Of a DNA stretch of 64,000 nucleotides, positions 20,996 to 37,030 are shown piece after piece. Position 1 is the stretch's first letter. Each line of letters begins with the position of its first letter. Made by a program: the position numbers and the translations under genes. Under the pieces are notes generated by a model. That model was not told the DNA's origin, did no database searches, and was given only the letters and a program-made list of their open reading frames with translations. Origin of the DNA: Mycobacterium simiae (GTDB lineage: Bacteria; Actinomycetota; Actinomycetes; Mycobacteriales; Mycobacteriaceae); the NCBI RefSeq assembly GCF_010727605.1, contig NZ_AP022568.1:2356001-2420000 (forward strand). Reading direction: 5' to 3'.

Positions 20996-22426
20996 TCAGC
21001 CCTCGTCGGGGGCGTAACCCAGTGTGCTTTTGACCTCCAGATACTCGTGGAAGCCGAAGTCGCTCCACTCTCGTCCGTTGCCGCTGCGCTTGTACCCGCC
21101 GAACGGCGCGTTCAGATCGAAGGCGTGGTTGATCGTCACCCATCCGGCGCGGATCCGGCGGGCGACCTCGCGTGCCTTGTCGAGGTCGGTCCCCGAGACG
21201 AATCCGGCCAGACCGTAGTCGGTGTCGTTGGCGATCTCGATGGCGTGATCGATGTCGTCGTAGCCGAGGATGCACAGTACCGGCCCGAAGATCTCTTCGC
21301 GCGCGATCGTCATGTCGTTGGTGACATCCGCGAAGACGGTCGGCTTGACGTAGTACCCCTTGTCCAGCCCCGCCGGCCGGCCCGGACCTCCCGCGACCAG
21401 GGTCGCGCCCTCGTCGATGCCCTGCTGTATCAGCCGCTGCACCTTCTCGAACTGCGTCTTGGAGGCCACCGGCCCGATCGCTCGCCCGTCGTCGGGGTCG
21501 CCCACCACGACTTTCTCGGCAACCGCTCGGGCGATGGTGATGGCGTCGCCCATCCGCGAATTCGGGACCAGCATGCGTGACGGTGCGTTACAACTCTGCC
21601 CCGAATTGGGCATCATGTTGGCCACACCGGCGCTGACGCTCGCGGCGAAACCGCTGTCGTCGAGGACGATGTTGGGGCTTTTCCCGCCGAGTTCTTGGGT
21701 CACTCGCTTGACCGTCGGGGCGGCCTTTTGGGCCACCTCGACGCCAGCGCGGGTCGAGCCGGTGAACGACACCATGTCGATGTCGGGGTGGCTCGCCAAA
21801 GCCACACCGACGCCGGCGCCGTCGCCGTTGACCAGGTTGAACACCCCGGGCGGTACGCCTGCGGCGTCGAGAATCTCGGTGAAGATGTAGGGCGAATAGG
21901 GCGCCACCTCAGAGGGTTTCAGGATGACGGTGCACCCGCACGCCAAGGCCGGGTACACCTTGACCGCGACCTGATTGATCGGCCAGTTCCACGGCGTGAT
22001 CAGGCCACAGACACCGATGGGCTCCCGGGCGATCAGTGTCGCGCCGTGTTGCTCCTCGAACGGGAAGTTTTTCAGCGCGTCGATAGCCGTGGTCAGATGG
22101 CCGATTCCGAGGAAGACCTGTGGTCCGGCCGCCAGCGATGGCGGTGCACCGATCTCTTCGGTGACGGCCTCGGCCAGGTCGTCCGCCCGCTTTTGGTACT
22201 CGGCCAGGATTGTCTGCAGAAGGTCCAGGCGCTGCTGACGGGTACTGTGCGACCAGTCGGCGAAGGCCCGCCGGGCGGCGTTGACCGCCCTGTCCACATC
22301 GGCCGCCGAACCCAGCGAAATCCTGCCGGACACCTGTTCGGTTGCGGGATTGTCGACGTCGAAAGTGTTGGGACGCACCGGGTCGACCCATTGTCCGTCG
22401 ATATAGAACTTGAGGTAGTCGCGCAT
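20996..22426 (-). CDS. NAD(P)-dependent aldehyde dehydrogenase
   Basis: 476 residues of the ALDH superfamily. The general-base glutamate is in VTQELGGKSPNIV (about 255), the catalytic cysteine in SGQSCNAPSRM (about 288), and the end motif PFGGYKRSGNGRE is present. It oxidises an aldehyde to the acid. It is the last gene of the leftward wing of the accessory catabolic locus, 27 bp after the ThDP enzyme. One role that fits is removal of the aldehyde released by that enzyme. Substrate unknown. Confidence 0.9.
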   Translation of the reverse strand: MRDYLKFYIDGQWVDPVRPNTFDVDNPATEQVSGRISLGSAADVDRAVNAARRAFADWSHSTRQQRLDLLQTILAEYQKRADDLAEAVTEEIGAPPSLAAGPQVFLGIGHLTTAIDALKNFPFEEQHGATLIAREPIGVCGLITPWNWPINQVAVKVYPALACGCTVILKPSEVAPYSPYIFTEILDAAGVPPGVFNLVNGDGAGVGVALASHPDIDMVSFTGSTRAGVEVAQKAAPTVKRVTQELGGKSPNIVLDDSGFAASVSAGVANMMPNSGQSCNAPSRMLVPNSRMGDAITIARAVAEKVVVGDPDDGRAIGPVASKTQFEKVQRLIQQGIDEGATLVAGGPGRPAGLDKGYYVKPTVFADVTNDMTIAREEIFGPVLCILGYDDIDHAIEIANDTDYGLAGFVSGTDLDKAREVARRIRAGWVTINHAFDLNAPFGGYKRSGNGREWSDFGFHEYLEVKSTLGYAPDEG

Positions 22427-22453
22427 CGGACGGTCCCTTTCTCGCTGGGTGAT

Positions 22454-24160
22454 CTACTGAGTGCCCTCGGCGTACCAGGTGCGGAATTCGTCGTATTTGG
22501 GCATCTCCTCGGAGTTGGCCTTCGGATCGATGCAGACGTGGACGACGGCGGTCTTGCCGCTCGCGTAGGACCGCGCGATCGCCGGACCGATCTCGTCCTC
22601 CTTCTCGACGTACTCGCCGTGGCAGCCGAAGCCCTCGGCAACCTTGTCCAGACGGACGTCTTTGCTCCAGTGCACACCCGGCTGCGGCGACGGCTGCGGG
22701 AAGGTGCGCTTGTAGACGCCCACTTCCAGGCCCCACTGGTGGTCGACGCCCACCACGCAGACCAGCGGAAGGTCTTGCCGCGCAGCTGTTTCCAACTCGG
22801 CAATGTGGAAGAGGAACGCCGAGTCGCTGGTCAGCAGCAGCACCGGGCGGTTGCCACCCTCGGCGACCGACGCCCCGATCGCATACGGCAAACCGGTGCC
22901 GAGATGGCCGAAGTTCTGGTTCCAGATGACGTCGTGCGGTTTGGCCTGCGCGTAGGTCCAGCCGAAGATGACGGTGGCACCGCCGTCGCGCACCATGATG
23001 CCATTTGCTGGAAACGCCCGGGTGGCCTCGACGATGAACCGTGCCGGATGGATCGGCGTCCGCCCGGTCGGTGCGGTCTCGGCCAGTTGCGCCAGCTCCG
23101 CGGCGTCCTGGGCAATCCAGCGCTGCAGGTCTACGGACGGCGTTCGCGGAGTGTCGCGCAGCGCGTCCACCAACTGGGGCACCACGCCGCGAAGGTCACC
23201 GACCAGCGGCAGGTCGATGGGACGGTTGACGCCGATGGCGAGCGGATCCTGTTCGACCAGAACCCATTTACGCTTGGCGTCGTTCGGAGCCCAGTGCCGG
23301 GTTCTGCCGTAGTGGCTCGGTTCGCCGAGCTCCGTGCCGAGGGCGACGCACAGGTCGGATGTCACCACCGCCTCGACGGCGGCCGGGGAGAACCCGTAGG
23401 CGAAGGTGCGATCCTCGAGCCCTTCGATGAACGAGGTGCCACCGGAGGTCTGGATTACCGGGCATTGCATCAGCTCGGCGAGCTGCTTGACCGCCGCACC
23501 GGTGCGCGAGGTGTGGACTCCGTGCCCGACCAACAGGATCGGGCTTTCGGCCGCACGGATCAACTCCGCCGCTTCTCTCACCTCGCGTTCGCCCGCAGTC
23601 TGGTTGACGAGCCGATACCGGTGGGGCGGCAGCGGATCCGGTACGTCGAGCTCCTCGAGAATTACGTGCGACGGGTACTCGATGTAGGCCGGGCCGGGGG
23701 TGCCGGACATCGCCCGGCGGAACGCCTCGTGGATGATCTCGTCGGTCTGCTCGGCGTACTCGATGGAGGCGCTGTACTTTACCGACGCCGCGAATAACGG
23801 TTCCTGCCGGACAAATTGGATGCGGCCACGCCGGACCCGGCGCTCGGTGATGCGGGCGCGCTGGCCGCCGAGGAAGATCACCGGCGAGTTCTCCACCTTG
23901 GCGCACTGGATCGCGCCCGCCATGTTGGCCATGCCCGGGCCGAGCGTGCCGATGCATAGGCCGGGCTTACCCGTCATGCGCGATGCCGCCTCGGCCATGA
24001 ATCCGGCGCTCAGTTCGTGGTGCGGTGCGACCACCGACCACCCGCGGGCGTCGGCCTCGGCGAACATGTGCACGAAGTTCGGGTCCGGGATGCCGAACAG
24101 GGTATTGACCCCCTCGGCCTCGAACAGGTCGAGAATGCGCTTGTACACGGGCACGGCCAT
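22454..24160 (-). CDS. Thiamine-diphosphate-dependent enzyme, divergent (lyase/decarboxylase)
   Basis: 568 residues with the three-domain pyruvate-oxidase/IlvB fold. The activating Glu is in HHELSAGFMAEAASR. The cofactor motif is altered: TSDSAFLFHIAELE replaces GDG/GDS, and where NN normally stands the sequence reads VDHQWG. One Asp ligand is kept and the usual Asn is replaced by Asp. Relatives include acetolactate synthase, benzoylformate decarboxylase and 2-hydroxyacyl-CoA lyase. Its place between a CaiB-type CoA-transferase and an aldehyde dehydrogenase favours cleavage of a 2-hydroxy- or 2-oxo-acyl substrate to an aldehyde. ATG 24160 has AAGGAG upstream. Confidence 0.78.
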   Translation of the reverse strand: MAVPVYKRILDLFEAEGVNTLFGIPDPNFVHMFAEADARGWSVVAPHHELSAGFMAEAASRMTGKPGLCIGTLGPGMANMAGAIQCAKVENSPVIFLGGQRARITERRVRRGRIQFVRQEPLFAASVKYSASIEYAEQTDEIIHEAFRRAMSGTPGPAYIEYPSHVILEELDVPDPLPPHRYRLVNQTAGEREVREAAELIRAAESPILLVGHGVHTSRTGAAVKQLAELMQCPVIQTSGGTSFIEGLEDRTFAYGFSPAAVEAVVTSDLCVALGTELGEPSHYGRTRHWAPNDAKRKWVLVEQDPLAIGVNRPIDLPLVGDLRGVVPQLVDALRDTPRTPSVDLQRWIAQDAAELAQLAETAPTGRTPIHPARFIVEATRAFPANGIMVRDGGATVIFGWTYAQAKPHDVIWNQNFGHLGTGLPYAIGASVAEGGNRPVLLLTSDSAFLFHIAELETAARQDLPLVCVVGVDHQWGLEVGVYKRTFPQPSPQPGVHWSKDVRLDKVAEGFGCHGEYVEKEDEIGPAIARSYASGKTAVVHVCIDPKANSEEMPKYDEFRTWYAEGTQ

Positions 24161-24250: not shown

Positions 24251-25405
24251 TCATGATTCGACCTGCAACTCAAGCGTGTCGAGTATCTGCTCGGTGTGCG
24301 CGCCGAGTTCGGGCGCGGGTCCGGCGACGCGGCCCGGTGTCCGGGAAAACCAGGTTGGTACACCGGGGAAGCGCACCGGTCCGTGCGGGGTGTCCACCGT
24401 CTCGAACATGCCGACGGCGCGCAGATGCGGGTCGTCGAACAGCGCGTCCGGCGTGTTCAGCGGGGCGGCCGGTATCTCGAGTTCGCGTAGCAGGGTCAAC
24501 CACTGCGCGGTGGTGCGCTCCTTCATCGTCTCGGCCACCAATCCGTACACGGTATCGATGTGGCGGGCACGTTGTGCCAGCGTCGAATACAGTTCGCTCG
24601 CCCACGGTGGCCGCACGGCCTGCATGAAAGCCTGCCAATGCTTGTCGTTGTAGATCAACGCCGCGATATAGCCATCGCTGGTGCGGTACGGCCGGCGGTT
24701 CGGTGCCACGGTGCGCGGATACACCGCCGGGCCCAGAGGCGGTTGAAACAGTGCACCGTTGGCGTGTTCGACGAGCATGAAGGAGGCCATGGTTTCGAAC
24801 ATGGCGACCTCGACCTCTTGTCCCTCGCGACTGCGCTCGCGATGGAACAACGCCATCGTCGTGGCGTACAACGCCGTCAGGCCGGCGATCTTGTCGGCCA
24901 TGATGGTGCCGACGTAGCCGGCCTCGCCAGTCAGTTGCTGTTGCACGGCCGGCAGGCCGCACTCCGCCTGGATGGTGTCGTCGTAGGCGGGCCGGTCACG
25001 ATCGGGGCCGCGGCGCCCGTACCCGTAGCAGTTCGTGTACACAATCGTGGGGTTGATCGCGGCGACCGCGTCGTAGCCAAAGCCGAGCTTGGCGATCGCT
25101 TTGGCGCGCATCGAGTGGATGAACACGTCCGCGGTTTCCAGCAGCGCGCGTAACGCCCGGGCGCCCGCCTCGGTTTGCAGGTCCAGCACGATGCTGCGCT
25201 TGCCCCGGTTGACGTTGACGAATACTCCACTCATACCCGGCGCTGGGCCCACCGAGATGTAGCGGGTGTTATCACCTTGGGGCGGTTCGACTTTGATCAC
25301 ATCCGCGCCCATGTCGGCCATGATCTGGGTGCAGTAGGGGCCCATCACCATTGCGGTGAGGTCGATCACGCGCACGCCGGCCAGCGGCCCCGTCGGGTTA
25401 GGCAT
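24251..25405 (-). CDS. CaiB/BaiF family III CoA-transferase
   Basis: 384 residues. The N-terminal GVRVIDLTAMVMGPYCTQIMADMGADVIKVE is the family signature, NVNRGKRSIVLDL follows, and the catalytic aspartate is most likely in AYDDTIQAECGL (about 170). Family members move CoA between acids (formyl-CoA:oxalate, carnitine, bile-acid CoA transferases). Gene order CaiB-ThDP enzyme-ALDH recalls the formyl-CoA transferase/oxalyl-CoA decarboxylase pairing. ATG 25405 has AAGGAG upstream. A 90-bp gap separates it from the ThDP gene. Confidence 0.88.
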   Translation of the reverse strand: MPNPTGPLAGVRVIDLTAMVMGPYCTQIMADMGADVIKVEPPQGDNTRYISVGPAPGMSGVFVNVNRGKRSIVLDLQTEAGARALRALLETADVFIHSMRAKAIAKLGFGYDAVAAINPTIVYTNCYGYGRRGPDRDRPAYDDTIQAECGLPAVQQQLTGEAGYVGTIMADKIAGLTALYATTMALFHRERSREGQEVEVAMFETMASFMLVEHANGALFQPPLGPAVYPRTVAPNRRPYRTSDGYIAALIYNDKHWQAFMQAVRPPWASELYSTLAQRARHIDTVYGLVAETMKERTTAQWLTLLRELEIPAAPLNTPDALFDDPHLRAVGMFETVDTPHGPVRFPGVPTWFSRTPGRVAGPAPELGAHTEQILDTLELQVES

Positions 25406-25445
25406 CCAGCGCTCCTTGCGGCCTTCTCGCGCCGAACGTGCGGGA

Positions 25446-25477: not shown

Positions 25478-25509
25478 CGCCCCACGCTCGGCGCGGCTGA
25501 GTCAGGACG

Positions 25510-26448
25510 CTAGCCATTGAGCGCTCCTTGATCGGTCGAGCGGTGCGCCAGTTCGAAGCTGTATCGGATGTGCTCGTTGTGTCCGTTCGGGACGGCCGGA
25601 AAGATCAGTGGCGCTTCGACGTACCGGATGGCGTCGAGATGGCTGCCGACGTCCTCGATGGTCCATGCTGGCCGGCACACGCCGGGACTCTCGGCGATGA
25701 CGGCCCGGGCCACCCGGCCCGCCAGGGCGACGAACAATTCGCCGGTGACCGAGCAGGATTCATGAGCGAGCCACCCCACCACAGGCGCCACGAGTTCCGG
25801 GCCCATCGGCGGATAAGACGAGGTGTCGATGCCCTCGGCCATGCGGGTCACGGCCGCGGGCACGATCACGTTGCACCGCACCCCCTCGGCCGCGCCTTCC
25901 AGGGCCGCGACATTGGCCAGTCCGATCACACCGGCCTTGGCCGCCGCATAGTTGGCCACGTTGTGGTTCCCGTAGAGGCCGCCGATCGACGACGTCAGCA
26001 CAATGCGGCCGTAACCCGCCGCGCACATCGACGGGAATGCCTGCCGCACCACGTTGAAGGCGCCCCGCAGATGCACGTCCAGCACGGCGTCGAAGTCCTC
26101 GTCGCTCATCTCCTTCAGCGAGGCGCGGCGTACATTGCCGGCGTTGTGGATCAGAATGTCGATTCCGCCGAAGTGCTCGAGCGCGGTCTGCACGATGGCG
26201 TGTGCGCCGTCGCGGGTCGTCACCGTCGCGGTGCACGCGACGGCGGTGCCCCCGGCCGCGGTGATCTCGCCGACCACCTGCTGGGCCGGGGCGGTGTCGA
26301 CGCCGGTGCCGTCGAGTCCGCCGCCGACGTCGTTGACGACCACATTGGCCCCGCGGGCGGCGAGCAGTTGGGCATACGCACGACCCAATCCGCGACCGGC
26401 TCCAGTCACCACGGCAACGCGATTGTCGAATCGCAGTTGCCGTGCCAC
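25510..26448 (-). CDS. Short-chain dehydrogenase, MFE-2/17-beta-HSD4-like
   Basis: 312 residues. The Rossmann motif VTGAGRGLGRAYAQ, followed by VVVNDVGGGLDGTG, is the pattern of the dehydrogenase half of peroxisomal multifunctional enzyme type 2, which acts on 3-hydroxyacyl-CoAs. NAG is in HNAGN, and the active site is Ser in VLTSSIGG with Tyr-x3-Lys in YAAAKAG. A C-terminal extension of about 50 residues is unusual for a simple SDR. GTG 26448 gives a typical N-terminus; a TTG at 26460 overlapping the previous stop is an alternative. Role inferred as oxidising a hydroxyl intermediate of the pathway. Confidence 0.82.
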   Translation of the reverse strand: MARQLRFDNRVAVVTGAGRGLGRAYAQLLAARGANVVVNDVGGGLDGTGVDTAPAQQVVGEITAAGGTAVACTATVTTRDGAHAIVQTALEHFGGIDILIHNAGNVRRASLKEMSDEDFDAVLDVHLRGAFNVVRQAFPSMCAAGYGRIVLTSSIGGLYGNHNVANYAAAKAGVIGLANVAALEGAAEGVRCNVIVPAAVTRMAEGIDTSSYPPMGPELVAPVVGWLAHESCSVTGELFVALAGRVARAVIAESPGVCRPAWTIEDVGSHLDAIRYVEAPLIFPAVPNGHNEHIRYSFELAHRSTDQGALNG

Positions 26449-26456
26449 GATTTCGC

Positions 26457-28328
26457 TCAACTGCCGAGCACCAGCCCTTCCAGGTCGCCCTTGTCGCGCC
26501 ACACCCGCAGCAGGTCCTCGAAGGCATAGAAGCCCGGGCCGTAGGGCTCGCCCAGGTGCGAGCGGATGCCCTCTCCGGCCGCGGCGCCCATGCCGCCGCC
26601 TTCGTTGTTGTAATAGCCCGGCGTGCACTCGGCGTCGAACGCCGAATTGTCCACGGCGGTCTCACGGATCGTTGCGCACCACTGCTCCTGTGCCGCGAGG
26701 CTGGGCTCCACCGTGGTGGCGCCGCGCTGCAACGCTGCGGCGATGACGTAGGCGATGTGTTCGCCCTGCAGTTCGTAATTCGCGGCGATGTTGGCCGAGA
26801 TGCCGACCTGGGTGAAGCCGGTGTAGAACTGATTCGGGAAGCCGCGGCTGGTCATCCCGTGTAGTGTCTGGTAGCCGTCGCGCCAGTAGTCGAATAGCGA
26901 CAGCCCGTCGCGTCCACGGATCGTCTCGATGGAATAGCGCCGGCTGATCTCGGTAGTGATCTCGAACCCGCTGGCGTAGATGATGCAGTCCACCTGGTAT
27001 TCCACCCCGTTGGCCAGCAAGCCCTTTTCGGTGGCCCGCTCGACGCCCTTGGTCGCCGACACGTCGACCAGCGTGACGTTCGGACGGTTGAAGCTGGGCA
27101 GGTAGTCGTCGTTGGAACAAGGCCGCTTGCACAGGAATCGGTAGTAGGGCTTGAGAGCCTCGGCGGTCTGCGGGTCGTCGATCAGGGTGTCGATGCGGCG
27201 GCGCAGCCGCTCCATGAGCTTGTAGTCCTCTTCCTCCCGGATCGCGATGAACTGCTCAGGTGTCATCGACGCGGGATCGTCTAGGGCGAGCACCCGGGCG
27301 GCGGTGTTGCGCCCCAACTCCGTCCAGAAGTCACACACCAAATCCGGTTGGCCCGGCGCCATCCCCTCGAACGTCCAGGAGTGAAAGTTGCGCTGACGTT
27401 CCCGTTGCCAGCCCGGGCGCAGCGTCTTGACCCATTCCGGATCGGTCGCGGTGTTGTTGCGCTGATCGACGGTCGACGGCGTGCGCTGAAACACGTACAG
27501 ATGTTTGGCGTCGCGGGCCAGGAAGGGAACGATCTGGATTCCGGTAGCGCCGGTACCGACCACCGCGACGCGCTTATCGGCCAACTTGTGCAGGCCCCCG
27601 GTGACATCGCCTCCGGTGTAGTCGTAGTCCCACCGTGACGAGTGAAAGCTGTGTCCGCGAAAGGCTTTGATGTCGGGGATGCCGGGGAGTTTCGGTCGGT
27701 GGAACGGGCCCGACGCCAGCACGACGAACCGGGCGCGGATATCGTCGTCGCGGTTGGTGCTGATTCTCCAGCGCTTGATCTGTTCATCCCAATGCAGTTC
27801 GCGCACCTGGGTGGAGAAGATCGCCGAGTCGTACAGACCGAAATGCTTGCCGATGTTGCGGCAGTGCTGATAGATCTCGGCGCCGTCGGCGAACTTCTTC
27901 GACGGCATGAAGTCGAGTTCTTCAAGCAGCGGTATATAGCAATACGATTCGTTATCGCATTGAATCCCGGGGTAGCGGTTCCAATACCAGACGCCGCCGA
28001 AGTCGCCGCCGAGCTCGATGATCCGGACATCGTCGACACCCGCCTTTTTCAGGTGGGCGGCCGAGAGCAGGCCGGCGAATCCGCCACCGAGGACGGCGAC
28101 GTCGATGTCCTCGTTGATCGGTTCCCGGGGTGTGACCGGGGTGTAGGGATCGACCTCGTAGTAGCCGGCGAAGTCGTCCTCGAGTTCGACGTACTGCTTG
28201 GATCCTTCGCTGCGGAGCCGCTTTTCGCGCTCCTGCCGATATTTTGCGCGCAGCGCGTCGATGTCGAAGTCCTCGGGCGTCTGGGTCGGCCCGCAACCGT
28301 TCTGGTTTCCGTTGCTCTCGGAACTCAT
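26457..28328 (-). CDS. Flavin monooxygenase of Baeyer-Villiger type
   Basis: 623 residues. It has an FAD motif VLGGGFAGLLSAAHL near 80, an NADPH motif VGTGATGIQIV near 258, and between them the Baeyer-Villiger fingerprint FRGHSFHSSRWD. An N-terminal extension of about 70 residues precedes the FAD domain, as in steroid- and cyclic-ketone-type enzymes. It inserts oxygen next to a ketone carbonyl, giving an ester or lactone, using NADPH and O2. Its ATG overlaps the stop of the Rieske gene as ATGA, so the two are probably translationally coupled and act on the same substrate line. Substrate not identifiable from sequence. Confidence 0.9.
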   Translation of the reverse strand: MSSESNGNQNGCGPTQTPEDFDIDALRAKYRQEREKRLRSEGSKQYVELEDDFAGYYEVDPYTPVTPREPINEDIDVAVLGGGFAGLLSAAHLKKAGVDDVRIIELGGDFGGVWYWNRYPGIQCDNESYCYIPLLEELDFMPSKKFADGAEIYQHCRNIGKHFGLYDSAIFSTQVRELHWDEQIKRWRISTNRDDDIRARFVVLASGPFHRPKLPGIPDIKAFRGHSFHSSRWDYDYTGGDVTGGLHKLADKRVAVVGTGATGIQIVPFLARDAKHLYVFQRTPSTVDQRNNTATDPEWVKTLRPGWQRERQRNFHSWTFEGMAPGQPDLVCDFWTELGRNTAARVLALDDPASMTPEQFIAIREEEDYKLMERLRRRIDTLIDDPQTAEALKPYYRFLCKRPCSNDDYLPSFNRPNVTLVDVSATKGVERATEKGLLANGVEYQVDCIIYASGFEITTEISRRYSIETIRGRDGLSLFDYWRDGYQTLHGMTSRGFPNQFYTGFTQVGISANIAANYELQGEHIAYVIAAALQRGATTVEPSLAAQEQWCATIRETAVDNSAFDAECTPGYYNNEGGGMGAAAGEGIRSHLGEPYGPGFYAFEDLLRVWRDKGDLEGLVLGS

Positions 28329-29725
28329 GCCGGCCCAGACTCCTTGTCTGACAGTTCGTGGGGTTCACCGGCGCCCATGTACCGGGATAACTGGTAGTGC
28401 AGGTTGACGGTGCTGCGCTCGCGGTACGGGTTGGGCTTGGTGCCGCCGAAGCCTAGGGACTTCATGCCCTGCTGCACGGCGGCCATGTTCGAGAAGTCCT
28501 GGGGAAGCACCGATCGCCACCTGGGGTCGCCGACCGGTGTGTATTCCCATTCCGTTTGCGGCTCTTCGCCTTTGGGGTAAAGCTCGAAGACCGATACTTC
28601 GAAGATGCACTTGTCCGGGTTGTAGCTGGGATGCGGCCGCGCGCCGTAGCATAGGGCGCTGGTCAGGCCTTGCCCGATCTGGAAGTTGGGGAAGATCTGC
28701 CACGCGGTGCCGGCCTGTCCCAGAATGTCGGCGGGAATCGTCGGCCAGATCACGCCGCGGGCTTCGTCGTCGCGGCGTGCCGACGCCAGCCAGTGTTCGA
28801 GAACCTGGTCGGCCGGAGTGCCCTCGGGTAATTCGTCCACCAGGCGCTTGGCGGCATTGACCAGCGTCTGGGTGGTGGTGGCGTTGGTTTCCTCCATCGT
28901 GTACACCTGCATCTGGGCGGTCGACACCCGCGGGTCGGCGCCGGTGCCCAGGCGGATCTTGGACTTGGTCGCCTCCAGGTCCTCGGGTGCGTCGTAGCCG
29001 ATATTGCTGTGTCGGCCTTGGGCTTTGGCCCAGCCCTTGAATTCGCCGAACTTGTTGAACTCGGGATGGGTGGTGTAGACGTGGTAGGTCTCGTTGAAGG
29101 CCTCTAGCGCGACCTTCCAATTGCAGTCGAAGAACAGCCATTTGCGCCACTTGTAGCGCATGTTTTCCAGGCCGAACGGGTCCAAGATCTTCGCGGCGGG
29201 AAACAGGTAGTCGGCCAGCGGCTCGCAGTCGGGGTCCATGTTGATCCACAACCAACCGCCCCAGGTGTCGACCCGGACTGGTCGAAGGTGGGTGTTGTCC
29301 GGCGTGATCGCGCCCTGCCAATCCTGCTGTTCGCGGATGTGGGTGCAGGAGCCGTCGAGTCCGTAGGTCCAGCCGTGAAAACCGCAGACGAACGATTTTC
29401 GGGCGCGCCCGCACGCATTCTTGGCGCCCTGAGGGGTGTCGATGAGCCGGCGGCCGCGGTGCATGCACACGTTGTGGTGGGCGTGAAATTCGTTCCGGCC
29501 CGTGCGGACCACGATGATCGAGTCGTCCAGAATGTCGTAGGTCAGGTAGCTGCCCACCTCGGGCACCTCCTCGACGCGGCCGACCTGCTGCCAGACCTTG
29601 CGCCACAGCTTGTCCCGTTCGGCACGGGCGTACTCCTCGGAAAGGTATGCCTCGGCCCCGATCGTCATCGGTCGTGACAGTTCCTCGGCTGCTTGAGAAT
29701 TCACGCCTTTGGCTAGGTCGGTCAT
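28325..29725 (-). CDS. Rieske non-haem iron oxygenase, alpha subunit
   Basis: 466 residues. The Rieske [2Fe-2S] ligands are Cys-x-His in VCMHRGRRL and Cys-x2-His in VCGFHGWTYG. The mononuclear iron site shows NETYHVYTTH (two His). The protein is longer than KshA-type oxygenases and typical of ring-hydroxylating alpha subunits. No beta subunit, ferredoxin or reductase gene is nearby, so electrons must come from elsewhere. ATG 29725 has AGGAGG upstream and overlaps the SDR stop (TGATG). It is likely the first oxygenation step of the locus. Confidence 0.9.
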   Translation of the reverse strand: MTDLAKGVNSQAAEELSRPMTIGAEAYLSEEYARAERDKLWRKVWQQVGRVEEVPEVGSYLTYDILDDSIIVVRTGRNEFHAHHNVCMHRGRRLIDTPQGAKNACGRARKSFVCGFHGWTYGLDGSCTHIREQQDWQGAITPDNTHLRPVRVDTWGGWLWINMDPDCEPLADYLFPAAKILDPFGLENMRYKWRKWLFFDCNWKVALEAFNETYHVYTTHPEFNKFGEFKGWAKAQGRHSNIGYDAPEDLEATKSKIRLGTGADPRVSTAQMQVYTMEETNATTTQTLVNAAKRLVDELPEGTPADQVLEHWLASARRDDEARGVIWPTIPADILGQAGTAWQIFPNFQIGQGLTSALCYGARPHPSYNPDKCIFEVSVFELYPKGEEPQTEWEYTPVGDPRWRSVLPQDFSNMAAVQQGMKSLGFGGTKPNPYRERSTVNLHYQLSRYMGAGEPHELSDKESGPA

Positions 29726-30588
29726 CACATCCTCCTGATCGCCGCGCGGAAGGACTCGTCCTTGAGGAACAGTGACGTGTTGTCGCCGCCGAGATGGCTC
29801 CACTTCAGGTCCAGGCCGCCGTCGACGAGCAGCGTCTGGCCGGTGATGTAGCTGGACATGTCCGAGAGCAAAAACAGGATCGCGCCGGCCTGCTCTTCGG
29901 GACGCCCACGTCGACCCATCGCGATCGCCTGCCGGTCGCGCGCGGGGTCCTCGTCGACGTAGGTGCGTGACGCCGCCGTCTCGGTGACGCCGGGTGCCAC
30001 GGCGTTGACCCGAATTTCCGCCACCGCCAACTCGAGCGCCATGGTGCGGGTCATCGCCGTGATGGCGGCTTTGGCTGTCCCGTAGGCGATGTGAAACGGC
30101 GCGGTATTCATGCCGCTGATCGACGAGATCGACACGATCGAACCAGGGTGCCGCTGCGCGACGAGCTCGCTCGCCACGGCTTGGCTCATGAAGAACGCCG
30201 TTTCGAGGTTGTCGGCGAAAATCTTGCGCCAGTCGGGGCGCGTCACCCGGGTGCACGGCATCCACGTCGACGGCTCGGCGCCGCCGGCGACATTGACCAA
30301 CCCGTACAGATTGCCATCGGCGCGGCACGCCCGATCGATGACCGCGGCGATGCCCTCGTCGCTGGCTACGTCGGCAGCCACGGGCACCACGGCCAGACCC
30401 TGTTGGGCCAGTGGGGCGATGTGTTGGTCGAGGTTTTCCTTCGACCGGCTCACCGCGATCACCGTGGCGCCCGCCCGGGCGGTCATCGCGGTGATGGTCG
30501 TACCGATGCCGCCGCCGCCGGCGCCGGAAACCACGACCACCCGGCCGCGCAGCCCGAGCAGATCGCCGAGATCCTGGTGACCGTCCAT
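29725..30588 (-). CDS. Short-chain dehydrogenase/reductase, first gene of the leftward catabolic operon
   Basis: 287 residues, classical SDR. The nucleotide motif is VVSGAGGGGIGTTI, with NVAGG in place of NNAG, active Ser in VSISSISG and Tyr-x3-Lys in YGTAKAA, and the C-terminal LLVDGGLDLKW. NAD(H)/NADP(H) use cannot be decided safely. The ATG at 30588 is preceded by GGGAGG. It opens the leftward run, whose first three cistrons overlap by 1 and 4 bp. It probably oxidises an alcohol of the degraded compound. Confidence 0.86.
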   Translation of the reverse strand: MDGHQDLGDLLGLRGRVVVVSGAGGGGIGTTITAMTARAGATVIAVSRSKENLDQHIAPLAQQGLAVVPVAADVASDEGIAAVIDRACRADGNLYGLVNVAGGAEPSTWMPCTRVTRPDWRKIFADNLETAFFMSQAVASELVAQRHPGSIVSISSISGMNTAPFHIAYGTAKAAITAMTRTMALELAVAEIRVNAVAPGVTETAASRTYVDEDPARDRQAIAMGRRGRPEEQAGAILFLLSDMSSYITGQTLLVDGGLDLKWSHLGGDNTSLFLKDESFRAAIRRM

Positions 30589-30618
30589 GCCCTCCCGTTC
30601 ACCTATCTAAGCCCGCGA

Positions 30619-30728
30619 TATTGTCCGGACAAAATATAACGTTCTGCGCTATGGAGAACACTATTCCGATCGCCGGACTCGCCTGTCAAGGTCGGGCAGG
30701 GACGCTTTCGCGGCTATTGTCTGGACTA
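30619..30728. promoter_or_regulatory. Divergent promoter with paired TTGTCYGGAC operator-like sites
   Basis: The 193-bp gap between the two wings holds a perfect 12-bp palindrome TTGTCCGGACAA at 30621-30632 in an AT-rich setting. A second copy, TTGTCTGGACTA, is at 30717-30728. The shared 12-mer TATTGTCYGGAC repeats in the same orientation 96 bp apart. The HutC/GntR regulator encoded two genes to the right is the likely ligand, since GntR sites are short palindromes with GT...AC edges. One site lies near each wing's expected promoter. Confidence 0.6.
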
Positions 30729-30781
30729 GGAGGACTTGATAACGTCCAGCCCAACGGCTGACGGAAGGATCCCGGCGAGTA

Positions 30782-32413
30782 ATGGCGCTCTCAATCCAGT
30801 CTTCGCGGCCGCCTTCGCGCTATGCGCCCGCCGACTCCGCGGCAGCGCCCCTCGACGTCGCCGCGGGGTGGGAGTTGCATCGGGTCACCGCGCCGAGCCG
30901 ATTGTTCGGTGCCAATGGTCTGCGCACCGGCCCGGACGGTCGCATCTACATCGCGCAGGTGACCGGCAGCCAGATCAGCGCGCTGGATCACCGCACCGGC
31001 GAACTGGTAACCACCAGCCCCCAGGGTGGCGACATCGTCGCGCCCGACGACGTCGCCTTCGACGCGCACGGCAACCTGTACGCCACCGAGGTGATGGACG
31101 GCCGGGTCAGTGCCCGCGACAGCAACGGGAACACGCGGGTATTGCGCGACGACGTGCCGTGCGCCAACGGCATCACCTTCCACCAGGACCGGCTGTTCAT
31201 CGGTGAATGCCGAGACGGCGGACGACTGCTGGAATTCGACCTGACCGGCGGGCCACCCCGGGTGCTGTTGGAGAACGTGCCCTCGCCCAATGCGATGGAG
31301 GTGGGCCCGGACGGCTTGCTGTACTTCCCGGTGATGACCGCCAACGAGATCTGGCGCATCGACCCCGACGGGGGTGAACCGCACTGTGTAGCAAGAGATC
31401 TCGGCGTCCCGGATGCGGTCAAATTCGACGCTGACGGGTACATTGTCTCGACACAGGTGGCCAGCGGGCAGGTGCTGCGCATCGATCCACGCACCGGCGA
31501 ACAACGTCTGCTCGCCCAGCTGAATCCGGGACTGGACAACTGCACCTTCGTCGGAGATCGGCTGTTTGTCTCCAATTTCACCGGTGAGATCACCGAGATA
31601 TCACCGGACGGCACCGCACAGCCGGTATTGGCGGGTGGACTCAACTGGCCGCTGGATCTGGCCGTCGGCGACGACGGACTGCTCTACATCGCCGACGGCA
31701 CCTATTTCTATGCGGCACTGCCCGACGGGTCCGTGCACACCGCGGGAATGCTGTTCAGCCCCGGCTATCCCGGGTTTTTGCGCGGCGTCGCGGCCAGCGG
31801 TCCCGGTGAGTTTATCGTCACCACCTCCGGGGGCCAGGTCGGTCGCTACCGGCCGGCGGCGAACGAAACCGAGTTCCTGGCAGACGGTTTCGATCAGCTC
31901 TACGGTGTTGCGCTCAGCCCCGCCGGTGTGGTCGTTGCGGAGCTGGGCACCGGCCGGGTGCTGGCGCTGCGGTCGGGGGCCGTCACGGTGCTGGCCGCCG
32001 AGCTGCGGGAGCCGGTCGGCGTCGCGATCGACACCGACGGGTCGTGCCTGGTCGCGGAGTCCGGAGCCGGCCGAGTGGTCCGGGTGAATGGCGGCACCGT
32101 CGATACCGTGGTCGACGACCTGCAACGGCCACAGGGCGTTCTAGTTCGCGATGGTGTCCTCTACGTCGTCGACGCGGGCGCCAAGGAGGTGGTCGCCGTC
32201 GATCTGGCTGGTCGCACGCGCCAATCGATCGCGTCGGGACTACCAGTCGGTGCCCCACCCGGTGTGACGCCCAAACCGCTGCGCGGCATGCCTCCGTTCT
32301 CCGGACCACAGGGCCCGTTCGCCGGCATCGCGGCCGCGTCCGACGGGACGCTCTATGTGTCGGCCGACGGCGACGGCAGCGTGCTGGCACTGCGCCGGAC
32401 CCGGTCCGACTGA
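30782..32413 (+). CDS. SMP-30/gluconolactonase-like beta-propeller protein
   Basis: 543 residues made of repeated beta-propeller blades with motifs such as GLRTGPDGRIYIAQ, DVAFDAHGNLYATE, GVALSPAGVVVAELG and GVAIDTDGSCLVAE. The length suggests more blades than the six of one SMP-30 domain, possibly two propellers. SMP-30 relatives are metal-dependent lactonases, so hydrolysis of a Baeyer-Villiger lactone is an attractive role. NHL-type binding without catalysis is also possible. No signal peptide is evident. ATG 30782 follows GGAAGGA at slightly long spacing. Its stop overlaps the next start (TGATG). Confidence 0.72.
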   Translation: MALSIQSSRPPSRYAPADSAAAPLDVAAGWELHRVTAPSRLFGANGLRTGPDGRIYIAQVTGSQISALDHRTGELVTTSPQGGDIVAPDDVAFDAHGNLYATEVMDGRVSARDSNGNTRVLRDDVPCANGITFHQDRLFIGECRDGGRLLEFDLTGGPPRVLLENVPSPNAMEVGPDGLLYFPVMTANEIWRIDPDGGEPHCVARDLGVPDAVKFDADGYIVSTQVASGQVLRIDPRTGEQRLLAQLNPGLDNCTFVGDRLFVSNFTGEITEISPDGTAQPVLAGGLNWPLDLAVGDDGLLYIADGTYFYAALPDGSVHTAGMLFSPGYPGFLRGVAASGPGEFIVTTSGGQVGRYRPAANETEFLADGFDQLYGVALSPAGVVVAELGTGRVLALRSGAVTVLAAELREPVGVAIDTDGSCLVAESGAGRVVRVNGGTVDTVVDDLQRPQGVLVRDGVLYVVDAGAKEVVAVDLAGRTRQSIASGLPVGAPPGVTPKPLRGMPPFSGPQGPFAGIAAASDGTLYVSADGDGSVLALRRTRSD

Positions 32414-33153
32414 TGGCCCAGGCCATCGCGGGCGACCACCGCTACCTTCAGATCGCGCGCACGCTGCGTAAAGAGATCGTGGACGGCGTGTATCCGGTCG
32501 GCTCGCAGCTACCGACCGAACACCAGCTGTGCGAGCGATTCGCGGTGAGCCGCTACACCATTCGCGAAGCGCTGCGGCGGCTGCGCGAGGACAACCTGAT
32601 CGCGTCTCGGCCGCGTGCGGGCACCCGGGTGGTGCCTCGGCCTGCGTCGAGTTCCTATGCCCAGGACGCGATGTCGATCGACGATCTGCTCGCGTTCGCG
32701 GCCGGCGCACAGCTGACTATCGAATCGAACGCGATGGTGACTATCGACGACGAGCTGGCCGCCCGGATCGGGCTCGAGGCCGGCAGCCAATGGCTCTCGG
32801 TGCGCGGCTACCGGCAGGCCGACGGGGCGACGGTGCCGATCTGCCGAACCGAGTACTACATCAGCCGCAGCTTCGCCGCGGTCGGCCGGCTGCTGCAACG
32901 CCACGCCGGGCCCATTTTTCCGTTGATCGAGGATCTGTTCGGCGTGAGCATCGCTGCGCTGCACCAGGAAATCGCCGCCGTCGTGCTCTCCCCCGAACTG
33001 GCCGACAGGCTCGGCGCGGCGGCCGGAACCGCGGCCCTGCAGATGCGTCGCACCTACACCACCTCCGATGGGGAGGTGGCCCAGGTGACGATCAACACCC
33101 ACCTGTCGTCGAGGTTCCGCTACGCCATGACGATGCGTCGCGTGACCGGGTAA
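32413..33153 (+). CDS. GntR-family regulator, HutC subfamily
   Basis: 246 residues. The N-terminal winged HTH (about 8-75) has GSQLPTEHQLCERFAVSRYTIREALRRL, the GntR signature. The C-terminal UTRA ligand-binding domain has GSQWLSVRGYRQADG and PICRTEYYI. HutC-type regulators usually repress a neighbouring catabolic operon and release it on binding a pathway intermediate. It is translationally coupled to the beta-propeller gene, so it is likely autoregulated through the divergent promoter near 30.6-30.7 kb. Confidence 0.88.
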   Translation: MAQAIAGDHRYLQIARTLRKEIVDGVYPVGSQLPTEHQLCERFAVSRYTIREALRRLREDNLIASRPRAGTRVVPRPASSSYAQDAMSIDDLLAFAAGAQLTIESNAMVTIDDELAARIGLEAGSQWLSVRGYRQADGATVPICRTEYYISRSFAAVGRLLQRHAGPIFPLIEDLFGVSIAALHQEIAAVVLSPELADRLGAAAGTAALQMRRTYTTSDGEVAQVTINTHLSSRFRYAMTMRRVTG

Positions 33154-33175
33154 GGCCACCCAAGATGAGGTCGAC

Positions 33176-34786
33176 GTGAGCGCTCAGCCCCCGCGGGACC
33201 AAGTGCGCGCGGCGGAAGCGTACCGCCGCGGATGGTGGGTGCACACCACGCTGGCCGATTCGCTGCGCACCGCCGCGGAACTGTTGCCCAGCCGAATCGC
33301 CTTGGTGGACGGGGATATTCGGCTCGACTGCGCGACCCTGCACACCCAGGCCACCGCACTGGCCACCGCCTTGCTGTCGCGGCTGCCGCCAGCCAGCGTG
33401 GTGTCGTTCATGCTGCCGAACTGGCACGAAGCCGCCGTGATCTACCTGGCGGCCACCCTGGCCGGCATGGTGGTCAACCCCATCCTGCCGTCGCTGCGCG
33501 ACCACGACCTGCGTTTCATCCTCGAAGATGCCGCGACTGCCCTCATCTTCGTCCCGCACAGTTACGGCGGGCATGCCTATGCGGCAATGCTCGACCGCGT
33601 GACGGCCACCATGAATCCGGCACCTCCCGTGGTGGTGCTACGCGGCGACGCCGGTCGGCACCTGCCATACCGGCAGCTGCTCGAACAGCCACCGGACGTC
33701 GCGGCCCTGCCGGTGCTGGATCCCGACACGGTGCGGATGATCCTGTACACCTCCGGCACCACTAGCCGGCCCAAAGGGGTGTTGCACACCCATAATTCGA
33801 TCCATGCGCTGATCTGTCAGATCCGCGACCACTGGATGGTGACCCGCGGTGATACCTTCCTGGTGCCGTCGCCCATCGCCCATATCGGCGGCTCGATCTA
33901 CGCGTTCGAATGTCCGCTACTGCTGGGCTCCACCGCGGTGCTGATGGACCGATGGGATGCGGCCGAGGCGGTCGCCCTGATGGACACCGAACGCTGCACC
34001 CACATGGCCGGCGCCACTGTTTTTCTGCAGCAACTGTTGGCCGCCGCCGAACGCGCCGGCACCCGGCTGCCTCACCTGAAAATGTTCATCTGCGGCGGCG
34101 CATCCGTACCACCGTCCCTGATTCGCCGGGCCGCATGTTATTTCGATCGGGCGGTCGTCACCCGGGTGTACGGCTGCACCGAAGTGCCCGTCACCACCGT
34201 CGGCGCACCACGGCCCGACGAAGCCGACCGCGCCGCCGACACCGATGGGCGGCCCGGCATCGCCGAGATCAAGCTCGTCACTCACGACGCCGCACCCGCG
34301 GGTGACGCGGAGATCTGTGTCCGCGGCCCGCAGCTGTTCGCGGGCTACCACCATCCCGAGGACACCGCCGAGTCTTTCGACGCCGCAGGCTTTTTCCGCA
34401 CCGGCGACCTTGGGCGCTGGGTGGACGGACAGTACCTGATCGTGACCGGCCGGGCCAAGGACGTGATCATCCGCAGCGGTGAAAACATCTCGGCCAAGGA
34501 AGTCGAGGACCTGCTGGCCGACCATCCCGGCATCGCCGAGATCGCCGTCGTTGGGCTGCCTGATGACCGGACCGGGGAGCGGGCTTGCGCCGTGATCGTG
34601 CCCTCGGGTACCGCCCGACCGGACGTCGCGAGCCTGCTGGAATTGCTGGTGCGCAAGGGCGTCGCCAAGTTCAAGGCGCCGGAACAGGTCGTGGTCTGGG
34701 ATGCCCTACCGAAAAACGATGCGGGCAAGGTGCTCAAGCATCGGATCCGAGCGTCGTTGACTCAGGCGGAGGCAAAGGATGGCTAA
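33176..34786 (+). CDS. Acyl-CoA synthetase (ANL superfamily), first copy in catabolic locus
   Basis: 536 residues. The P-loop is ILYTSGTTSRPKGVLHTH, with VYGCTEVPVTT, FRTGDLGRW, GRAKDVIIRSGENI and the C-terminal catalytic lysine in KNDAGKVLKHR, so a complete AMP-forming CoA ligase. Similar to cyclohexanecarboxylate- and medium-chain-type ligases. GTG 33176 is 22 bp after the GntR stop. Its 3' end overlaps the following SDR by 8 bp. It probably activates a carboxylic acid made in the pathway. Confidence 0.86.
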   Translation: MSAQPPRDQVRAAEAYRRGWWVHTTLADSLRTAAELLPSRIALVDGDIRLDCATLHTQATALATALLSRLPPASVVSFMLPNWHEAAVIYLAATLAGMVVNPILPSLRDHDLRFILEDAATALIFVPHSYGGHAYAAMLDRVTATMNPAPPVVVLRGDAGRHLPYRQLLEQPPDVAALPVLDPDTVRMILYTSGTTSRPKGVLHTHNSIHALICQIRDHWMVTRGDTFLVPSPIAHIGGSIYAFECPLLLGSTAVLMDRWDAAEAVALMDTERCTHMAGATVFLQQLLAAAERAGTRLPHLKMFICGGASVPPSLIRRAACYFDRAVVTRVYGCTEVPVTTVGAPRPDEADRAADTDGRPGIAEIKLVTHDAAPAGDAEICVRGPQLFAGYHHPEDTAESFDAAGFFRTGDLGRWVDGQYLIVTGRAKDVIIRSGENISAKEVEDLLADHPGIAEIAVVGLPDDRTGERACAVIVPSGTARPDVASLLELLVRKGVAKFKAPEQVVVWDALPKNDAGKVLKHRIRASLTQAEAKDG

Positions 34787-35561
34787 GAGGCAAGTCGCAA
34801 TCGTCACCGGAGCAAGCAGCGGCATCGGCTGGGGATGCGCCGCCAAGCTCGCCGAGATGGGCATGGCCATTGTGGGCGCGGGTCGCGACCGAGACCGGCT
34901 GGCCGGTCTGGAGCAGGCGGTCGGCGAGCCGGATCGGATCGCGACCCTGGCCGTCGATCTGACCGACGACGACGCGCCGGGCCGCATCGTGGACCTCGCG
35001 GTCGACCGGTGGGGCCACATCGACTTCCTGATCAACAACGCCGGGGTGGGCAATCCCAAACCGCTGCATGAAACAGACGACGAAACCCTGGACTACTTCC
35101 TGGGTTTGATGTTGCGGGCTCCGTTTCGGCTGGCGCGTGAGGTGCTACCGCACATGGCGCCGGGATCGGCCATCATCAACGTCACGTCGACCTTCGCCGT
35201 CGTGGGCGGCCTGCGCGGCGGCGCCTACTCCGCGGCTAAGGGCGGGCTCACCGCGCTCACCACGCACATCGCCTGCCAGTACGGTGCATCCGGAATCCGC
35301 TGCAACGCAGTGGCTCCCGGTGTGACGGTGACGCCGATGGTCGAGCGGCGGCTGCAGGACGAGCGATTCCGCAAGATCAACACCGAGATGACGCCACACC
35401 AGCGGCTGGGCCGGATCGACGACATCGCCAGCACGATCGCCTTCCTGTGCTCCCCCGGTGGAAGTTTCATCAACGGCCAAACGATCGTCGTCGACGGCGG
35501 CTGGAGTTCGACCAAGTATCTGTCGGAATCCGCCTTGGCGGCACAGTGGATCGAGCGATGA
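34779..35561 (+). CDS. Short-chain dehydrogenase/reductase in catabolic locus
   Basis: 260 residues, classical SDR. It has VTGASSGIGWGCA, INNAGVG, Ser in INVTSTF and Tyr-x3-Lys in YSAAKGG, and the C-terminal VVDGGWSS. It overlaps the acyl-CoA synthetases on both sides (8 bp and ATGA), so all three are probably made in fixed ratio. It may act as a 3-hydroxyacyl-CoA or alcohol dehydrogenase on the activated intermediate; the exact reaction is unknown. Confidence 0.86.
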   Translation: MAKRQVAIVTGASSGIGWGCAAKLAEMGMAIVGAGRDRDRLAGLEQAVGEPDRIATLAVDLTDDDAPGRIVDLAVDRWGHIDFLINNAGVGNPKPLHETDDETLDYFLGLMLRAPFRLAREVLPHMAPGSAIINVTSTFAVVGGLRGGAYSAAKGGLTALTTHIACQYGASGIRCNAVAPGVTVTPMVERRLQDERFRKINTEMTPHQRLGRIDDIASTIAFLCSPGGSFINGQTIVVDGGWSSTKYLSESALAAQWIER

Positions 35562-37030
35562 ACCTGTTCGCGATGCTCGATCAAGCCGCGAGCCGATTTC
35601 CCGACCGCGGCGCGTTGTATCGCGGGCCGCACCGGGTATGCACCTGGGTTCAGTTGCGCGATCGTGCCTTACGGCTGGCCGCGGCGATCCGGCAGCAGCA
35701 CGGTGCGGGTGCCCGCATCGCGATCGCCACGCATAACCGCCCCGAGATTGTCGAGTTGATGTTCGCGATCTGGGCCGCCGAGTGCGTGGTCGTCCCAATC
35801 AATTACAAGCTGCATCCGCGCGAGATGGTGCAAATCCTCGACGACGCGGGCGCAGCGGAGGTGTTCGCCTCGGCGTCCCTCGGCGCCCAGCTCGCCTCGA
35901 TGACCGCGGCGCCGGTGGAAACCATTGATTCCGAAGGTTATTCGCGTCGACTTGGTACCGCGCCGGCGGCGCCGACGCACACCGATCCGAACACGCTGGC
36001 CTGGCTTTTCTACACCAGCGGAACCACCGGCAAGTCGAAGGGCGCGATGTTGTCGCACCGCAACCTCACGGCGATGACCGTGGCGCACCTGGCCGACATC
36101 GACGCTGCGGACGAGCACTGCAGCCTGGTGCACACCGCGCCGATGTCGCACGGCTCCGGCCTGTACGTGCTGCCGTACGTGCTGCGCGGCGCACGCCAGG
36201 TGGTACCCGAATCGGGCGGCTTCGATCCCGACGAATTCCTGGATCTGTGCGAGCATCACCCGGGTGCCGGCGCATTTTTAGCCCCGACGATGGTGCAACG
36301 GCTGGTGGCCACGGGCCGGAGCCGCCCCGCCAATCTCCGGACGATCGTCTACGGCGGCGGCCCGATGTACGTCGAGAGCCTGCGCAAGGCGGTCGCGGCA
36401 TTCGGGCCGATCTTCGCCCAGATCTATGGCCAGGGCGAGTCGCCGATGACCATCACCGGACTGCGCCGCGTCGACCACGAAACCGACGACGACGCGATTT
36501 TGGGTTCGGTCGGCTATGCCCGGTCGGGAATGGAGGTTGCGGTGCTGCGCGCCGATGGCGACATGGCGCCCGTCGGTGAAATCGGCGAAATCGTGTGCCG
36601 CGGAGACGCGGTTATGTCGGGGTATTGGCAGCATCCGGACGCGACCGCCGCCACTCTCAAAGACGGCTGGCTCTATACCGGCGATCTGGGTTCGATCGAC
36701 GCCCGCGGTTTTCTCACCCTGCGGGACCGGTCAAAGGATGTGGTCATCAGCGGCGGGAGCAACATTTATCCCCGGGAGGTGGAGGAGGCGCTGCTCGAGC
36801 ACCCGGCCGTCGCGGAGGCCTGCGTGGTCGGCACCCCCGACACCCAGTGGGGCGAGGTGGTGGTGGCGTTCATCGTCGGCGCGGTCGAGCCCGCGGTGTT
36901 AGATGCGCACCTGTTGCGGCGCATCGCGCGGTTCAAACGGCCGAAGCGTTATGAATTCGTCGACGAGCTACCGAAAAACAGCTACGGCAAGGTACTCAAG
37001 CGCGAGCTGCGCGCCCGCCTGGCGCCGTGA
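35558..37030 (+). CDS. Acyl-CoA synthetase (ANL superfamily), second copy in catabolic locus
   Basis: 490 residues. It has P-loop FYTSGTTGKSKGAMLSH, IYGQGESPMT, LYTGDLGSI, RDRSKDVVISGGSNIYPREVE and the C-terminal lysine in KNSYGKVLKRE. It is shorter at the N-terminus than its neighbour and only loosely similar to it, so it is not a recent duplicate and may act on a different acid. ATG 35558 overlaps the SDR stop as ATGA; the longer frame upstream runs inside the SDR. It is the last gene of the rightward wing. Confidence 0.87.
   Translation: MNLFAMLDQAASRFPDRGALYRGPHRVCTWVQLRDRALRLAAAIRQQHGAGARIAIATHNRPEIVELMFAIWAAECVVVPINYKLHPREMVQILDDAGAAEVFASASLGAQLASMTAAPVETIDSEGYSRRLGTAPAAPTHTDPNTLAWLFYTSGTTGKSKGAMLSHRNLTAMTVAHLADIDAADEHCSLVHTAPMSHGSGLYVLPYVLRGARQVVPESGGFDPDEFLDLCEHHPGAGAFLAPTMVQRLVATGRSRPANLRTIVYGGGPMYVESLRKAVAAFGPIFAQIYGQGESPMTITGLRRVDHETDDDAILGSVGYARSGMEVAVLRADGDMAPVGEIGEIVCRGDAVMSGYWQHPDATAATLKDGWLYTGDLGSIDARGFLTLRDRSKDVVISGGSNIYPREVEEALLEHPAVAEACVVGTPDTQWGEVVVAFIVGAVEPAVLDAHLLRRIARFKRPKRYEFVDELPKNSYGKVLKRELRARLAP

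Follow-up and report, generated by a model that had tools for sequence, protein, structure and literature searches.

Positions 20996-37030 of a 64,000-nucleotide stretch of Mycobacterium simiae DNA (contig NZ_AP022568.1, positions 2,356,001 to 2,420,000), the whole of which is referred to here as the window, carry eleven enzyme and partner genes together with one regulator gene of the HutC/GntR type, organised in two divergent wings around a single promoter. Judged by sequence comparison these twelve genes represent one evolutionary unit, which in whole or in large part is common to most of the mycobacteria sampled, and we consider the chances about even that this unit is a regulon, widely distributed in Mycobacterium and dedicated to the catabolism of a ketone or acid which is bulky and alicyclic and probably a polycyclic isoprenoid (terpenoid- or steroid-like). 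The strongest of the new points are a core of genes which recurs across phyla, a promoter with two conserved sites, the retention of genes where the operon has been split, and the repeated exchange of the Baeyer-Villiger monooxygenase (BVMO). The gene content was established from an open reading frame listing, Pfam and NCBIfam scans and translations, and all genes were found where a preliminary description of this DNA had placed them; the genes named in the heading of that description are indeed present, but the heading left out the class III coenzyme A (CoA)-transferase at 24251-25405.

The genus sample comprised 198 evenly drawn genomes and the phylum sample 396 genomes, and the loci compared were those of the 80 best BVMO matches in GTDB genomes, 72 of which extend over at least 19.6 kb (the long loci) and form a biased set because they were taken from these best matches, which does not apply to the even draw. 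An orthologue of the Rieske oxygenase (RO) was present in 153 of the 198 genus genomes and the BVMO in 151, every one of them among the 153, the counts using unlike thresholds (1e-150 for the RO; 1e-270 with a query of BVMO type B, as defined below). The thiamine diphosphate (ThDP)-dependent enzyme was found in 101 of the 198 genomes, 100 of which also carry the RO (Fisher p 1.2e-15), and in 89 of these 100 its gene lies no more than 15 kb from that of the RO. Among the long loci, nine genes, specifying the CaiB CoA-transferase, the short-chain dehydrogenases SDR1, SDR2 and SDR3, the BVMO, the RO, the propeller protein, the GntR regulator and CoA ligase 1, were in 70 of 72 cases all found at distances of up to 10 kb from the BVMO, and the neighbourhood check which the preliminary description had called for thus showed that the genes travel together; the full set of twelve is present in 38 of the 72, with an orthologue of CoA ligase 2 in 47. 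Mycolicibacterium vaccae, M. rhodesiae and M. sphagni are among its environmental carriers. The cluster is retained in slow growers as well as in rapid growers and this, together with the 153 RO-positive genomes, contradicts the earlier view that it was acquired or lineage-specific. The possibility that this DNA corresponds to a known plasmid was also discarded, as no plasmid record covered positions 25500-37030 at 80%, the best coverage being 25%.

The ThDP enzyme and the aldehyde dehydrogenase (ALDH) are an optional part of the cluster. In 70 of the 72 long loci the two orthologues, looked for at up to 10 kb from the BVMO, occur jointly or not at all, and both are missing from 19 (including L022, L024, L026, L029, L030, L032, L033, L034 and L044); a genome-wide check of genome G003 did not identify a ThDP orthologue, the best match being 28%. 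In five loci (L014, L018, L027, L028 and L079) the ThDP-ALDH pair is positioned directly ahead of SDR2 rather than after CaiB, which in the four that reach that far means between the propeller gene and SDR2, and the ThDP enzyme of these loci is approximately 75% identical to that of the window.

Just two long loci, both from Mycolicibacter, lack the full nine-gene set, and in these the operon is split with SDR2-RO-BVMO-SDR1-ALDH being kept. In genomes G022 and G028 the ThDP gene is far from the RO and BVMO genes but has the remaining genes around it, the CoA ligase 1, GntR and propeller genes to one side and CaiB and ThDP to the other, and such retention of the genes within a genome after operon splitting argues for a shared function. 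In the G022 locus (L116), the only one of the two to be scanned, two pairs of acyl-CoA dehydrogenase genes are situated between CaiB and the ThDP gene, and the one subunit tested had its best PDB matches in 4x28 and 6wy8/6wy9, which we take to be steroid enzymes. The M. branderi copy of the cluster is adjoined by a gene for a CYP150-like P450; on the same plasmid (L114, positions 602000-636000) the propeller, GntR, CoA ligase 1 and SDR3 genes are located some 72-83 kb from the RO gene, amid several P450 genes and genes for mycofactocin-coupled SDRs.

An eight-gene core also recurs in another phylum, as is evident from sequence comparison with Sphingobium. Two Sphingobium plasmids carry SDR2, BVMO, RO, ThDP, ALDH, propeller and SDR1 orthologues within approximately 14 kb at 51-73% identity (propeller 55%), with CaiB (69%) elsewhere on the same plasmid at no more than 5 kb from a second RO, and in Sphingobium RAC03 acyl-CoA dehydrogenase pairs of the same build as those of L116 are found near CaiB and this second RO. 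The ALDH orthologue of the RAC03 plasmid (L085:20262-21675) is in two frames, from a frameshift or else from faulty assembly. The order ALDH-ThDP-SDR1-BVMO-RO-SDR2-propeller is common to a Rhodococcus plasmid (L001) and one genome of the phylum draw (G249; L112 and L115). Within the phylum the ThDP enzyme is rarely encountered except in the genus, since eight of its nine carriers among the 396 phylum-draw genomes also belong to the genus draw. In Azospirillum, Paraburkholderia and Sphingomonas paeninsulae more distant ROs (37-40% identical) have neighbouring genes which encode a ThDP dehydrogenase of two subunits, so that the combination of an RO of this family and a ThDP enzyme is a recurrent one.

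The minus wing, in order from the promoter, consists of SDR2 (29725..30588), RO (28325..29725), BVMO (26457..28328), SDR1 (25510..26460, with a TTG start and NCBIfam PRK07791 as its best match at 226 bits, below the cut-off of 373), CaiB (24251..25405), the ThDP enzyme (22454..24160) and ALDH (20996..22426; 476 aa, Pfam Aldedh 497.7 bits), while the plus wing comprises the propeller gene (30782..32413), the regulator gene (32413..33153), CoA ligase 1 (33176..34786; Pfam AMP-binding 236.9 bits), SDR3 (34779..35561, assigned by Pfam scan) and CoA ligase 2 (35558..37030, assigned by family scans, as was SDR2). The propeller protein, of 543 aa, is of the SMP-30/NHL type (Pfam SGL 65.7 and Vgb_lyase 52.3 bits) and is a candidate lactone or ester hydrolase. 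Checking of start and stop codons bore out the cistron overlaps of 1-8 bp claimed earlier, these being 1 bp for SDR2/RO, 4 bp for RO/BVMO and 4 bp for BVMO/SDR1 in the minus wing, and 1 bp for propeller/GntR, 8 bp for ligase 1/SDR3 and 4 bp for SDR3/ligase 2 in the plus wing. Beyond the cluster, the window encodes at 39237-40718 a SigX5-type extracytoplasmic function sigma factor with a SnoaL domain, the true start of which is probably further in, and an inversion is suggested by locus L013, in which the genes beside the cluster (acyltransferase, DUF899, SDR and sigma factor) do not have the orientation with respect to it that they have in the window.

The two wings share the region 30589-30781 between SDR2 and the propeller gene. 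Two conserved operator-like sites are present, the perfect palindrome TTGTCCGGACAA at 30621..30632 and, 96 bp away, TTGTCTGGACTA at 30717..30728, with three strand matches to the pattern as compared to 0.02 expected. Promoters were readable in 69 of 83 loci, and 14 were set aside because either SDR2 or the propeller protein had no match that could be used or other genes intervened between the two; with a pattern widened from sequences already observed at these promoters all 69 were found to carry at least one site, 59 having two and 10 having one; the spacing is 95-97 bp in 58 of the 59 two-site promoters. The exact pattern was located at 13 places in eight genomes, 12 of them at this promoter (placed by alignment in five genomes and by coordinates in the other two) and none in G004. 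The thirteenth, a perfect TTGTCCGGACAA, is just upstream of another GntR/UTRA gene (L118, G136:C1 near 378035), which suggests that a site of this kind may also serve other, related GntR proteins; a search with the pattern for distant regulon members gave just this one site outside the cluster in the eight genomes. The regulator belongs to the HutC/GntR type by its GntR DNA-binding domain (70.7 bits) and UTRA domain (58.2 bits) in Pfam. Two conserved operator-like sites in a single divergent promoter, with the regulator gene inside the unit, are compatible with a self-contained, autoregulated regulon with putative binding by the GntR protein.

The window BVMO contains two Rossmann motifs, GGGFAG and GTGATG, and the fingerprint FxGxxxHxxxW[P/D], reading FRGHSFHSSRWD, which identifies it as a type I enzyme; the fingerprint G is not retained in L086. 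Its nearest structure is 5mq6 (413 bits), presumably that of a fungal polycyclic ketone monooxygenase which prefers polycyclic ketones, and its nearest named family is that of pentalenolactone D synthase, the score against the corresponding PtlE model for neopentalenolactone/pentalenolactone D synthase (NF045818) being 681.7 bits, short of the cut-off of 1100. With PtlE/PenE and 5mq6, the window protein shares membership of a long BVMO group with an N-terminal extension and the same fingerprint; unlike them, it scores below the PtlE cut-off, is encoded amid degradation-type genes and occupies an operon position at which either of two alleles may stand. We take the PtlE-type group to be associated with bulky ring ketones. 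A second PtlE-type BVMO, scoring above that of the cluster (approximately 795 bits), is encoded elsewhere at G001:C23:93202-94941 and G003:C3:296560-298290.

Identities of the BVMOs to that of the window fall into two groups, whereas those of the neighbouring proteins vary smoothly. Types were assigned from identity to the window protein, type A, to which the window allele belongs, being at least 77%, and L002 of M. branderi is accordingly labelled B although it is nearer to A (76.6 vs 69.2%). On average types A and B are approximately 71% identical to each other, as compared to 83-84% within types. In four pairs of loci of unlike type, nucleotide identity is lowered across the BVMO gene and rises again on both sides, most sharply for L006 and L046 (94-98% immediately downstream and 81-90% immediately upstream of the gene, vs 68-81% within it) and less so for the other three. 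The alignment comprised 69 rows including the window, after removal of L003, of loci without a complete, stop-free RO and BVMO and of those with an RO identity of 72% or less; for the trees, L025 and L068 were also dropped, leaving 67 rows, and support is given as SH-aLRT from a quick search, with no bootstraps. On the tree of four neighbour proteins without L002, 11 type changes are needed, 9 of which are forced by well-supported branches, as compared to approximately 22 for shuffled labels, while the BVMO tree needs just 1; with L002 these figures become 12 (10 forced) and 2, and the lower ones were adopted. The BVMO has, to judge from these trees, been exchanged in place between types A and B at least nine times. 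An origin of the two types by tandem duplication and differential loss is not favoured because none of the 80 loci has a second BVMO match and only one match (E <= 1e-270) is present in 150 of the 151 genus genomes with a BVMO, G121 having two.

The types are distinguished by 18 fixed differences, 7 of which are concentrated in a loop at residues 508-522 (15 of 623 residues, p 2.6e-8, for a stretch picked after viewing the data). By alignment, positions 508, 510 and 514 correspond to residues 440, 442 and 446 of phenylacetone monooxygenase, engineered variants of which at these residues are reported to have gained activity on indole (PMC9604523). A TauD/TfdA gene, in one case a remnant, directly follows the BVMO gene in five mycobacterial loci (L066, L070, L074, L078 and L065), all of type B, and TauD relatives are also found in the loci of M. 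branderi, Rhodococcus, Sphingobium and G249.

The RO, for which the ATG start was checked, is an alpha subunit with the Pfam Rieske and Ring_hydroxyl_A domains. Alignment to 6y9c revealed the Rieske CxH-CxxH motif and also ExxH(x4)H, in which a Glu occupies the bridging position as is characteristic of CntA/GbcA-type Rieske monooxygenases, and this Glu is invariant in 9 of 9 ROs. The protein shares these features with CntA and GbcA, the carnitine and glycine betaine monooxygenases, but differs from them in that it scores below the cut-off of the GbcA NCBIfam (121.4 bits vs 670) and in that family scans of the twelve genes, the rest of the genome not being searched, identified no dedicated flavin/Fe-S reductase gene.

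The ThDP enzyme, of the C-C lyase type and of 568 aa with three Pfam TPP domains, belongs to a family with no characterised close relative in the PDB. It is 71-77% identical to 20 proteins obtained by protein search, of which the named ones are from Proteobacteria (family members being named for Caulobacter, Acidocella, Sphingomonas and Novosphingobium), and no more than 30% identical over most of its length to the other ThDP enzymes of six mycobacterial genomes; among 8000 scored proteins, 2349 fall in its group at E <= 1e-120, the names shown being acetolactate synthase or generic. Its occurrence in one operon with an ALDH and a class III CoA-transferase recalls the alpha-oxidation logic of 2-hydroxyacyl-CoA lyase (HACL) and oxalyl-CoA decarboxylase, the catalytic, ThDP-activating Glu49 is invariant in 22 of 22 sequences and aligned to the Glu of HACL, and a D-S-A/S-F motif is common to the enzyme and ApbHACS. 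An assignment as HACL was nonetheless rejected, as the score of 149.7 bits falls below the NCBIfam HACL cut-off of 600 and the C-terminal CoA lid R-K-x-Q-x3-W is absent from all 7 aligned sequences, which have a conserved C-terminus of their own (NSEEMPxYxEFxTWY). The predicted fold is equally close to those of benzaldehyde lyase, oxalyl-CoA decarboxylase, acetolactate synthase and HACL and does not separate lyases, decarboxylases and synthases. Chain shortening, proposed earlier for the route as a whole, is a plausible role for this enzyme, though one without the score and lid of known 2-hydroxyacyl-CoA lyases. This lid has been described for two 2-hydroxyacyl-CoA lyases, while AcHICL/S is reported to differ (PMC11271303). 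CaiB, of 384 aa, is a class III CoA-transferase according to its CoA_transf_3 score (PF02515; 383.2 bits vs a cut-off of 23.3), and the catalytic Asp conserved in this class is kept within ADKxxGLT in 3 of 3 sequences; against formyl-CoA transferase (TIGR03253) it scores 167.2 bits, below the cut-off of 504.2.

For the proposed catabolic regulon we infer both the substrate and the order of steps. The ligases would make the CoA ester, the RO, accompanied in several lineages by a TauD/TfdA dioxygenase, would hydroxylate an unactivated carbon, SDR1-3 would convert alcohols to ketones, the BVMO would insert oxygen beside a ring ketone and the propeller protein would open the resulting lactone or ester. 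The ThDP enzyme may then cleave an alpha-hydroxy-acyl or acyloin intermediate to release an aldehyde, which ALDH would oxidise, a coupling suggested by the joint presence or absence of the two genes, whereupon CaiB would move CoA onto the acid formed and the product would enter general beta-oxidation; the GntR protein would keep the two wings repressed as long as neither the substrate nor an early product is bound to it. The earlier reading of a pathway-like unit around a divergent promoter agrees with this, hydroxylation, dehydrogenation, oxygen insertion, hydrolysis and CoA activation all being plausible from the gene families. A polycyclic isoprenoid is suggested because the BVMO has 5mq6 and pentalenolactone D synthase as its nearest structure and named family, and because the acyl-CoA dehydrogenase pairs of L116, with like pairs in Sphingobium RAC03, match presumed steroid enzymes. 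It is also suggested by the CYP150-like P450 beside the M. branderi copy, as CYP150A5 is reported to oxidise beta-ionone (PMC6237146). A more detailed version, in which a pathway shared across phyla would open a polycyclic isoprenoid by means of Rieske enzyme, BVMO and propeller protein and follow this with a bacterial alpha-oxidation (RO or TauD for the alpha-hydroxylation, a new ThDP lyase family, ALDH and CoA-transferase), and in which the BVMO acts as an exchangeable specificity cassette whose swaps between A and B, at least nine in number, would alter the isomer or ring position attacked, is put forward tentatively and is rather doubtful in full. In the titles and abstract openings of the open-access literature searched, which takes in few subscription papers and no bioRxiv preprints, no published pathway with a matching gene set and no such gene cluster assigned to a substrate was found, in keeping with the preliminary description, in which no mycobacterial pathway with this exact set was known.

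A side branch of sterol or steroid catabolism, in which the RO would hydroxylate and the BVMO would open a steroid ring or remove a side-chain remnant so as to feed the 9,10-seco pathway, draws on some of the same observations, namely the matches of the L116 dehydrogenases and the 5mq6-like BVMO with its presumed taste for polycyclic ketones, and as in the actinobacterial 9,10-seco pathway there are an RO, CoA ligases and, in the split operon, paired acyl-CoA dehydrogenases. We regard it as unlikely. The cluster differs from that pathway in having a BVMO and a propeller protein in place of an aromatisation and meta-cleavage set, its regulator is a GntR protein and not a KstR, which is of the TetR type, and general scans of the twelve genes, with no dedicated search or KshA comparison, reported no KshA/KshB, KstD or HsaC-type family. 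Bile-acid steroids are reported to be degraded by both sphingomonads and actinobacteria (PMC8399759), in agreement with a steroid substrate; bile-salt degradation by Sphingobium Chol11 was rejected as a counterpart, KshA-type Rieske enzymes being described and the term Baeyer-Villiger appearing in neither paper, as far as the available text of each extends (PMC8399759, PMC8540908). The main text of one phytosterol transcriptome paper also weighs against a steroid branch, as Rieske occurs there only in a reference title and SMP-30, gluconolactonase, thiamine and BVMO do not occur (PMC6593523).

Apocarotenoid degradation, of abscisic acid or ionones, where the BVMO would act on a methyl ketone side chain to give an acetate ester that is then hydrolysed, is in our opinion improbable. 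The presumed association of the PtlE-type group with bulky ring ketones, evident also from the family name, does not suit such a side chain, while the presence of a CYP150-like P450 gene next to the cluster of M. branderi does suit an apocarotenoid. Rhodococcus sp. P1Y converts abscisic acid via dehydrovomifoliol to rhodococcal acid, for which step the authors propose a BVMO; the pathway genes are not named in the available text, however, so that there is no match at the level of genes (PMC9599779). Known abscisic acid degraders include Rhodococcus and Novosphingobium (PMC12509608), and the core is present in Rhodococcus and Sphingobium. Highly improbable, finally, is a natural-product biosynthesis or tailoring cluster resembling that of PtlE in pentalenolactone biosynthesis, for which the BVMO family name might speak: scans of the genes at 15608-40718, where SDRs weakly match the KR model, brought up neither a terpene cyclase nor a ketosynthase or condensation domain, the two CoA ligases, CoA-transferase, ALDH and ThDP enzyme suit breakdown, and the conservation is wide, through the genus and into Sphingobium plasmids.

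The view of this cluster as a lineage-specific acquisition is hereby corrected. Its RO is kept by approximately three quarters of the genus genomes sampled and this, combined with the core in Sphingobium and the proteobacterial relatives of the ThDP enzyme, implies a common environmental substrate. The ThDP enzyme is a member of a large group that carries no specific annotation, and the two BVMO types would represent a natural experiment in specificity.

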